From positions 1-64,000 of the forward strand of contig NZ_MUNV01000011.1 of NCBI RefSeq assembly GCF_002001125.1: DNA of 64,000 bases, in the 5' to 3' direction. Position numbers and translations under genes: made by a program. The notes under the pieces are model-generated. The model was not told the DNA's origin. It did not search any database and was given only the letters and a program-made list of their open reading frames with translations. Positions 43,394 through 45,321 of this stretch are shown piece by piece; positions within the stretch are counted from its first letter, which is position 1; each line of letters opens with the position of its first letter. The stretch is from Rhodanobacter sp. B04. GTDB lineage: Bacteria > Pseudomonadota > Gammaproteobacteria > Xanthomonadales > Rhodanobacteraceae.

Positions 43394-44263
43394 ATGAATT
43401 GGCTGCAGAAAATCATGAACCCGCGCACCCGCCCGCCGGGTACGAACGGCGGCAAGGGTTCGGTACCCGAGGGCGTGTGGGAGAAGTGCGGCGGTTGCGG
43501 TACCGTGCTGTACCGGCCGGAGCTGGAGCGCAACCTGATGGTCTGCCCGAAGTGCGGCCATCATCACTACATCAGTGCCCGCACGCGGTTGGATGCGCTG
43601 CTGGATGAAGGCTCCGCCCAGGAACTGTGGGCCGGCCTGGAACCCACCGATCCGCTGAAATTCCGCGACTCCAAGAAGTATCGCGACCGCATCGTCGCCA
43701 CCCAGAAAAAGCTCGGCGAGAAAGACGCGCTGCTGGCCATGAGCGGCAAGCTCAAGGGGCGTCCGCTGGTGGCGGTGGCGTTCGAGTTTGCTTACATGGG
43801 TGGCTCGATGGGTTCGGTGGTCGGCGAGAAATTCGCCCGCGCCGCCGAACGCGCACTGGCCGACCGCAGTGCGCTGGTGTGCTTCTCCGCCACTGGCGGC
43901 GCGCGCATGCAGGAGGCGTTGTTCTCGCTGATGCAGATGGCCAAGACCTCGGCGGCGCTGGCGCGCCTGCGCGATGCCGGCGTGCCGTACATCAGCGTGC
44001 TGACCAATCCGACCACCGGTGGCGTATCCGCCAGTCTGGCGATGCTGGGCGACATCAACATCGGCGAGCCGAAGGCGCTGATCGGCTTCGCCGGTCCGCG
44101 CGTGATCGAGCAGACCGTGCGCGAGACGTTGCCGGAAGGCTTCCAGCGTTCCGAGTTCCTGGTCGAGCACGGTGCGATCGATCTGATCGTCGACCGTCGC
44201 GAAATGCGCGACAAGCTGGCGGACCTGCTCGGCATCCTGGTGAAGGCGCCGCGCGCGGCCTGA
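43394..44263 (+). CDS. accD: Acetyl-CoA carboxylase carboxyltransferase beta subunit
   Basis: A 289-residue subunit making malonyl-CoA for fatty-acid synthesis. The N-terminal zinc ribbon uses Cys32, Cys35, Cys51 and Cys54 ([10 protein letters not shown] and MVCPKCGHH). The crotonase-fold core includes [35 protein letters not shown] and [12 protein letters not shown]. In related bacteria folC usually follows directly; here a terminator and a repeat array follow. Confidence 0.97.
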
Positions 44264-44287
44264 TCGGATGCAGCTGCAGCAGCGAAG

Positions 44288-44318
44288 CGATGCCGCCGTA
44301 TGGCGGCATCGCCGTTTT
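44288..44318 (+). terminator. Intrinsic terminator after accD
   Basis: CGATGCCGCC (44288-44297) and GGCGGCATCG (44302-44311) form a perfect 10-bp stem with a GTAT loop, followed by CCGTTTT. Confidence 0.8.
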
Positions 44319-44342
44319 CGAACCGGGTTTTCTGCGCGCGGG

Positions 44343-44434
44343 TTTTCCACAGCCGATGTGGAAGCCTGCCGGCAAAGCCTGTGGACAAGCCGCGCCTGCA
44401 GCTTATCGATCAGACACTTGCTACGCGCTGAGCA
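44343..44434 (+). repeat. DnaA-box-like 92-bp module, copy 1
   Basis: The module opens with TTTTCCACA (44343-44351, a match to the relaxed DnaA-box TTWTNCACA), then an inverted TGTGGA after five bases (44357-44362), then TGTGGACAA (44380-44388, inverted TTGTCCACA), and ends with CACTTGCTACGCGCTGAGCA starting at 44415. TCCACAG at the left and CTGTGGA at the right can also pair over about 26 bases. No gene is convincing here. Confidence 0.75.
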
Positions 44435-44462
44435 GGAATTGCACAGGCACCCCACTCGACAA

Positions 44463-44482
44463 CCCCGGGCGGTAGGCCGGGG
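44463..44482. other. GC hairpin between modules 1 and 2
   Basis: CCCCGG (44463-44468) and CCGGGG (44477-44482) can form a 6-bp stem with an eight-base loop in the spacer between the first two repeat modules. There is no T-run. Confidence 0.35.
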
Positions 44483-44503
44483 TCGTCATGTCCGGCGACA
44501 CAG

Positions 44504-44595
44504 TTTTCCACAGCTGCTGTGCACGCCTTCCGTGAAAGCCTGTGGACAACCTGATTTGGCCCTTTTGCCGACAGGCACTTGGCACGGCGTGCTGA
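44504..44595 (+). repeat. DnaA-box-like 92-bp module, copy 2
   Basis: Same layout as copy 1: TTTTCCACA at 44504-44512, TGTGCA (one change from TGTGGA) at 44518-44523, AAAGCC leading into TGTGGACAA at 44541-44549, and CACTTGGCACGGCGTGCTGA from 44576. Internal spacings (37 and 35 bases between block starts) equal those of copies 1 and 3. Confidence 0.75.
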
Positions 44596-44629
44596 CATTT
44601 TGCGCAGTGTCTGCCGGTTCGGTGCGGAG

Positions 44630-44721
44630 TCATCCACAGCGATTGTGGAGCGTGACCGGTAAAGCCTGTGGACAAGTGCGCTATCTGACTGACCGCAAAG
44701 GCGCTTGTGACGGCGTGCGCA
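44630..44721 (+). repeat. DnaA-box-like 92-bp module, copy 3
   Basis: Same layout: TCATCCACA at 44630-44638 (one base from TTATCCACA), TGTGGA at 44644-44649, AAAGCC leading into TGTGGACAA at 44667-44675, and CGCTTGTGACGGCGTGCGCA from 44702. It ends 24 bases before the stop of the PAP2 gene on the other strand. Confidence 0.75.
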
Positions 44722-44745
44722 AATGCTGATCAGCCGCGTGTCGGC

Positions 44746-45321
44746 TCATGCGAGCTTCGAGGCCATCGACAGCAGCCACAACGACGCTGCGCCCAGCCCG
44801 CTGCCGATGAGGATGGCGGCGAGCACGTCGCTCGGATAGTGCAGCCCGAGGATCACTCTCGAGATCGCGATCAGGGTGGTGAATCCGATCAGCAGCGGCG
44901 CCAGCTGCGGATACCAGGCCAGTGCGACGATGCTGAAGCTCACCGCCTGCAAGGTGTGTCCCGACGGAAAGCTGAATTCATCCAGCGCCGGCACATGCGC
45001 GATCACGCCAGGACAGGCCCGGTATGGGCGCGGTCGATGCGTCCAGCGTTTCAGCAGGCGATACAGCAGCAGTGCGGTCAGCCCGGTAGCGGCCATCTGC
45101 GCCGCGGCGGCCAGCCCGCGCGGACCGCCGACCAGGGCCAGCACGGCCATCAGTACGTACCAGAACACGCCGTCGCCGAGCCGGCTGACCGCACCGAAAA
45201 ACATTCCCACGGCGCGTCGTGCACCCCAGCGGTTCGCCGCGACGCAGACGCGGCGGTCCAGTGCGAAGCGGGTCGGCCCGATCGACAGCTCAGGCGTGTG
45301 CAACGGCGGCAATGTGTTCAT
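44746..45321 (-). CDS. PAP2-family membrane phosphatase
   Basis: A 191-residue membrane protein of the PAP2 (lipid phosphatase) family. The three catalytic motifs are present: KRWTHRPRP, FSFPSGHTLQAVSF and SRVILGLHYPSDVLA. Hydrophobic helices surround them. It may dephosphorylate undecaprenyl pyrophosphate or phosphatidic acid-type lipids. Its start overlaps the glycosyltransferase gene by 32 bases, so the two are probably functionally coupled. Confidence 0.9.
   Translation of the reverse strand: MNTLPPLHTPELSIGPTRFALDRRVCVAANRWGARRAVGMFFGAVSRLGDGVFWYVLMAVLALVGGPRGLAAAAQMAATGLTALLLYRLLKRWTHRPRPYRACPGVIAHVPALDEFSFPSGHTLQAVSFSIVALAWYPQLAPLLIGFTTLIAISRVILGLHYPSDVLAAILIGSGLGAASLWLLSMASKLA

Follow-up and report, generated by a model that had tools for sequence, protein, structure and literature searches.

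DnaA is the protein that starts chromosome copying, and DARS are the sites in Escherichia coli that recharge it; such recharging by DNA sites is established for E. coli, and there are reports of it from related bacteria. One source of ADP-DnaA in E. coli is Hda, a factor with which the idea of a clamp motif is associated. The cores of the two E. coli DARS share the geometry I(+)-5 bp-II(-)-3 bp-III(-), reading TTATCCACT-5-TGTGGATAA-3-TGTGTATTA at DARS1 (L196, 2108) and TTATTCACC-5-TGTGGATAG-3-TGTGAAGAA at DARS2 (L197, 4136). A passage of PMC5742627 gives the spacing as equal at both DARS, with box I opposing boxes II and III, and describes the head-to-head pair as a prominent DARS feature, where DnaA on box I would contact DnaA on box II in a head-to-head manner. 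On the spread of these elements, a passage of PMC4245941 limits conservation of the DARS2 core to those gammaproteobacteria that are related to E. coli, a passage of PMC10380432 presents DARS-like sequences as conserved in many proteobacteria, and the passage of one review on DARS-like sequences and DnaA concerns Vibrio. In the full-text literature searched, nothing joined a DnaA-reactivating sequence with Xanthomonas, or a DnaA box with Rhodanobacter.

The stretch analysed here (the window) is 64 kb of the genome of the soil bacterium Rhodanobacter sp. B04, and direct reading of its sequence showed three units in the non-coding gap between accD (43394..44263, + strand; Pfam Carboxyl_trans and Zn_ribbon_ACC) and a convergent PAP2-family gene (44746..45321, - strand; Pfam PAP2). 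Box I of the units starts at 44343, 44504 and 44630, giving start-to-start spacings of 161 and 126 bp with the three copies in register. The array starts 31 bp past the stem of a terminator-like hairpin of accD (44287..44312, + strand), which was recognised from the RNA fold of 44265-44325 (z -3.02) and from a self-complementary match; a consensus terminator scan found no terminator. Box I is TTTTCCACA in units 1 (44343..44351, + strand) and 2 (44504..44512, + strand), as supported by sequence, pattern match and TTDTCCACA count, and TCATCCACA in unit 3 (44630..44638, + strand), as supported by sequence and pattern match. Five bp after box I lies TGTGGA (TGTGCA in copy 2), belonging to a box II on the minus strand that was placed by sequence and alignment: TGTGGAAGC in unit 1 (44357..44365), head-to-head with box I at 5 bp, TGTGCACGC in unit 2 (44518..44526) and TGTGGAGCG in unit 3 (44644..44652). 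An inverted TGTGGACAA stands at +37 in all three units, where the TTDTCCACA counts place box IV, TTGTCCACA on the minus strand (44380..44388, 44541..44549 and 44667..44675), and the block at +72 is CACTTG (CGCTTG in copy 3).

A 46-bp pattern allowing at most two mismatches matched three times, compared with 0.00 times in 100 dinucleotide shuffles of the window. The sequence-only reading had described three units with identical internal spacing, built from box I, TGTGGA or TGTGCA and elements at +37 and +72; each of these elements is present as it stated, and the shared spacing is borne out by the absence of any match in the 100 shuffles. It had also taken the boxes for DnaA boxes, which fits, as they match the DnaA consensus. 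The consensus TTDTCCACA occurs seven times in the window against 0.58 expected, five of the seven lying within 333 bp in the array, and 38 times genome-wide against 24 for the reversed control, five of the 38 being those inside the array.

Between boxes II and IV, the box score at offset 25 on the minus strand exceeded all 1000 spacer shuffles in each of five locus classes (score against shuffle maximum: accD-type, 5.66 vs 3.69; XanB, 5.86 vs 4.14; XanC, 7.0 vs 4.39; Geobacter-type, 7.83 vs 5.00; the rest, 6.03 vs 4.06). Since this holds in all classes, the unit design is I(+)-5 bp-II(-)-2 bp-III(-, degenerate)-3 bp-IV(-), with all four elements being predicted DnaA boxes. The support for box III is at the level of the class and not of the single unit, which applies equally to the degenerate minus-strand boxes placed at 44368..44376, 44529..44537 and 44655..44663; in Rhodanobacter box III is weak, and a better box occupies the II–IV spacer in other lineages; Luteibacter, for example, has TGCATAA there, and L134, a Geobacteraceae MAG, has TGTGCATAA.

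The array is the sole such locus of its own genome. A genome-wide count of the module, the check that the sequence-only reading had suggested, returned one locus with three units: one BLAST place at E ≤ 0.001, and three forward and no reverse matches of the 46-bp pattern at two mismatches or fewer (a loose three-mismatch pattern gave 65 matches vs 65 for the control and is hence uninformative). A DNA match to the array was found in 34 of 35 genomes of the same genus, with G022 lacking a convincing one. Thirty Rhodanobacter loci were read, comprising the locus of the window and those of 29 relatives, with G006, G010, G027, G028 and G029 left out; they hold 74 units, three in 16 loci, two in 12 and one in the remaining two. 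Of these 30 loci, 29 have a recognisable accD and 27 a recognisable PAP2 gene, and the two genes lie on opposite strands in 26/26 loci where both were found. The 74 units had been selected by their boxes, so that box conservation is partly built in, and the count was therefore repeated with selection by one box only. Selection by exact box IV alone recovered box I (at least 8/9) at -37 in 72/72 units and TGTG at -23 in 70/72, and selection by exact box I alone recovered box IV at +37 in 67/67 units and TGTG at +14 in 65/67. In box II of the 74 units only TGTG shows almost no variation. Conservation is not confined to the boxes: it includes GGnAAAGCC ahead of box IV and short segments as far as +103, after which the columns are near zero. 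The unit-to-unit distance is variable in the 30 loci (113-162 bp).

A quasi-palindrome, G...A.....T...C, at +86 or +87 when counted from the first base of box I, is common to the modules and to a second site beside priA described below. In the window it lies about 87 bp from box I in all three units (44430..44444, 44591..44605 and 44717..44731, no strand assigned), placed by motif counts. This loose Fis-like motif was chosen after the alignments had been viewed, and stricter forms and two control motifs were also run; it was found in 68/74 accD units (61 at +87, 7 at +86) and, at +86, in 20/21 XanB units, 17/18 XanC units and 29/30 priA sites, against a mean background of 0.7-1.5 percent over all offsets; in these counts the two one-unit loci figure among the first units and among the last. 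It is weaker elsewhere, with 16/32 other loci at +86 and five more at +85, and two of six Geobacter-type loci at +86 and two at +85. Among further units the motif was present in 60/87; after removal of 17 that have sequence in common with the earlier loci, 51 of 70 carry it at +85 to +88, compared with 0.50 percent per offset elsewhere. The motif resembles the Fis consensus quoted in a passage of PMC8682772. The strict Fis consensus was matched by 48/74 accD units at +87 and, at +86, by 0/21 XanB units, 1/18 XanC units and 6/30 priA sites, and thus the strict form fits the accD class alone well. Scoring against the IHF consensus (at least 11/13 positions) gave IHF-like matches at +65 in 26/30 first units and at +120 in 20/30 priA sites; the match in unit 1 of the window (44408..44420, + strand, 11/13 positions) is at this common offset. 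In the last units of the 30 Rhodanobacter loci there was no IHF-like match at this threshold.

The modules resemble DARS1 and DARS2 in being intergenic, in the order box I(+)-5 bp-II(-), in later boxes oriented like II and in having putative accessory sites beyond the core, which in DARS2 are for IHF and Fis. They differ from DARS in that box III follows II by 2 bp, not 3, and is degenerate, in a fourth strong box, IV, placed 3 bp after III, which DARS are without, in standing as one to three tandem units in Rhodanobacter, and in the +87 motif; at E. coli DARS1 and DARS2 no quasi-palindrome was present at +86. The accD units carry the head-to-head I/II pair with a 5-bp gap, and of the DARS gaps of 5 and 3 bp it is the second that they lack, whereas the priA site of the same genome has both. 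The I-5 bp-II pair taken alone (at most one mismatch) gave eight matches vs two for the control in the own genome and was unspecific in three relatives (matches/control 4/8, 9/10 and 9/6). To datA the modules are similar as a non-coding DnaA-box cluster outside oriC, with IHF-like matches in some units; they differ in that no head-to-head 5-bp pair was found in 6 kb around E. coli datA, and in that datA is near oriC and the modules lie in the far half of the chromosome. The double DnaA boxes of E. coli in a passage of PMC11317965 sit on one strand with 2 or 3 bp between them, a rule that II-2 bp-III-3 bp-IV fits, but the module has four boxes, including the opposed box I.

As the own genome is in 30 contigs, the position of the array was taken from relatives. 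In four Rhodanobacter genomes the accD arrays lie 0.407, 0.377, 0.350 and 0.383 of the genome from dnaA (the G032 value being relative to its main contig, treated as the whole genome), and a dif-like site, located with a dif pattern, lies at 0.500, 0.491, 0.455 and 0.493 in the same four. Xanthomonas modules lie at 0.330, 0.358, 0.436 and 0.468 (G061) and at 0.318, 0.348, 0.440 and 0.474 (G060), two places in each of these genomes being two-mismatch matches. All modules of the six genomes are therefore in the half far from dnaA; the Rhodanobacter values represent one inherited place and those of Xanthomonas are mostly shared, so that the number of independent places is about five. With the oriC coordinate given in a passage of PMC11317965, E. 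coli DARS1 lies at about 0.33, DARS2 at 0.21 and datA at 0.10 of the genome from oriC. The array is not oriC itself, which the sequence-only reading had already called unlikely: dnaA is on another contig of the own genome (C30, the array being on C27), and 2.3-3.5 kb around dnaA in 10 genomes contained no I-5 bp-II pair.

The second site, TTATCCACA-5-TGTGGATAA-3-TGTG.A, has the exact geometry of the E. coli DARS core. Its pattern was found once in each of six genomes searched (four Rhodanobacter-type, two Xanthomonas), with no match for the reversed control, and the copy of the own genome is located upstream of priA (G000 contig 24, 347618-347649; L200/L267). All 30 Rhodanobacter loci that were read gave a priA match, as did both Xanthomonas loci, where it is downstream of the site; boxes I and II are identical in 30/30 loci read, and a search of 40 genomes of the genus returned a DNA match to the site in 39. 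Its distance from dnaA is 0.130, 0.142, 0.121 and 0.133 of the genome in Rhodanobacter (G024, G026, G030 and G032) and 0.124 and 0.119 in Xanthomonas (G060 and G061). Given what the passages of PMC10380432 and PMC4245941 say on the spread of DARS, this site may be covered by earlier work. A further TTATCCACA-5-TGTGGATGA pair, outside both site classes, was seen on G030 contig 1 at 2091657 (L207).

Beyond the genus, the four-box module (at most two mismatches) was found in 140 of 298 genomes drawn from Xanthomonadales, at 1-15 copies each, with all 140 belonging to two families (f1 and f2); the reversed control matched once, in one genome. A scan of genome contigs returned at least 116 loci with the module. 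Among the 116 loci listed, 45 share their neighbours with the array of the window, 41 of them having accD itself; two mainly Xanthomonas contexts account for 21 and 18, six are Geobacter-type and 26 are others. With neighbour genes taken as ORFs chosen using GC3, the module lies between NUDIX and SDR, GSP-synthase and MFS, OEP and prephenate dehydrogenase, and miaB and phoH genes in Xanthomonas, between kup and ruvB and between an S46 peptidase gene and miaA in Luteibacter, between FUSC and aromatic lyase genes in Oleiagrimonas, and between murJ and a DUF815 gene in Geobacter. As the neighbours differ between genera, the design is conserved more than the address. The Geobacter-type records with the four-box module are L107, L134, L147, L150, L156 and L174, the site of L150 being the one between murJ and the DUF815 gene; lying far outside Xanthomonadales, these modules would be ancient, transferred or convergent. 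Record L097, filed under Candidatus Eremiobacteraeota, has a Rhodanobacteraceae-like accD-PAP2-gltX region (accD 90 percent) and is probably a misbinned MAG contig. A phage element was rejected, the module pattern having 0 matches among viral contigs.

With its anatomy, fixed spacing, conservation and position as described, the array is on balance best explained as a chromosomal DnaA-bound locus of three tandem DARS-like modules that reactivates ADP-DnaA, an explanation drawn by analogy and held with somewhat better than even confidence. In each module DnaA would occupy boxes I and II in a head-to-head arrangement and II-III-IV in one orientation across gaps of 2 and 3 bp, and a Fis- or IHF-like bending protein at the +87 quasi-palindrome may help assembly. 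By analogy with DARS1 and DARS2, ADP-DnaA would then release ADP, take up ATP and initiate again; we infer nucleotide exchange of this kind rather than sequestration or hydrolysis. Hda is encoded in the genome (242.9 bits, cut-off 194.8). Because the origin is far away, replication would reach the array late in each round. A DNA-bound role is the likeliest given the convergent neighbours together with the lack of a promoter-like site and of RNA structure in the array, and reactivation is favoured over titration by the head-to-head pair and the remote position. The DARS reading also draws support from the fixed spacing recovered on selection by one box, from the priA-side site with exact DARS geometry, from the quasi-palindrome common to that site and the modules, from the fit of II-III-IV to the double-box rule and from the presence of Hda. 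Counting against the DARS reading are the different spacing of III, the extra box IV and the weak III in Rhodanobacter, as well as the uneven fit to the strict Fis form, the last units that have no IHF-like match and the absence of the +86 motif from DARS1 and DARS2; the poor specificity of the I-5 bp-II pair taken alone and the narrow spread that the passage of PMC4245941 assigns to the DARS2 core count against it too.

The tandem copies suit reactivation or titration alike, and a locus like datA, at which the array would titrate DnaA or promote DnaA-ATP hydrolysis and so restrain initiation, is the strongest rival, unlikely though it seems. The density of consensus boxes, five of the 38 in the genome within 333 bp, is in keeping with such a locus, and tandem repetition, with one genus reaching 15 units per genome, would suit a sink; however, for titration a total of five consensus boxes is small, no I-5 bp-II pair was found in 6 kb around datA, and datA lies about 0.10 from oriC whereas the measured modules are 0.32-0.47 from dnaA, where dosage is lowest. 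With 0.35-0.41 of the genome between it and dnaA in the four Rhodanobacter relatives measured, the array is not a cluster near oriC. The sequence-only reading had proposed a datA- or DARS-like locus; the DARS option is the one favoured by the 5-bp head-to-head pair, which is not found around datA, but the exact DARS spacing is not reproduced.

It is improbable that the array is bound by another protein using TGTGGA-type boxes, as the boxes fit the DnaA consensus, including the TTATCCACA pairs at the priA site, and TGTGCATAA serves as box III in one Geobacter-type locus. Regulation of the neighbouring genes by DnaA is a still more distant prospect: DnaA is known as a regulator, the second site precedes priA, and four of ten module contexts are between tandem genes (miaB/phoH, murJ/DUF815, kup/ruvB and S46 peptidase/miaA), but the other six are between convergent genes, accD and PAP2 keep to opposite strands in every locus with both, neighbours change from genus to genus, and no sigma-70-like promoter was found in 44200-44800. 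A REP-like dispersed repeat or RNA-hairpin family with no replication role, for which the inverted boxes are able to pair and ten genomes of one Dyella-like genus (g23, including G080, G292, G295 and G313) carry 6-15 similar units each, is scarcely credible, given one locus only in the own genome, no compensatory changes and 34/444 broken pairs over 74 units, unit RNA fold z values of -0.96, -0.69 and 0.45 (no excess folding) and a single Rfam match, inside accD and far below the gathering score. The suggestion in the sequence-only reading that the hairpins do something else is disfavoured by the same compensatory-change and folding results, and the tens of near-identical dispersed copies that it had named as counter-evidence do not occur in the own genome; the g23 modules are mostly clustered, up to six units about 113-206 bp apart, with four near-identical dispersed copies in addition in G080.

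Returning to reactivation by DARS-like modules, a wider and more tentative reading, which we consider rather doubtful, is that Xanthomonadaceae and Rhodanobacteraceae recharge DnaA at two sites, a DARS-type site at priA and the tandem four-box variant, the latter acting as a terminus-side timer set by unit number. The priA site would be the unvarying one, at about 0.12-0.14 of the genome from dnaA, and the four-box variant the fast-evolving one, its gap differing between genera but its place remaining on the terminus side; late duplication of the four-box array would then license the next initiation. The unvarying priA-side site provides a built-in comparison with exact DARS geometry. If the sites act like DARS, DnaA recharging would reach into Xanthomonadales, in part through a second, tandem architecture, and, if this is true, a unit number that varies by species would open site position, dosage and initiation timing to natural comparison.
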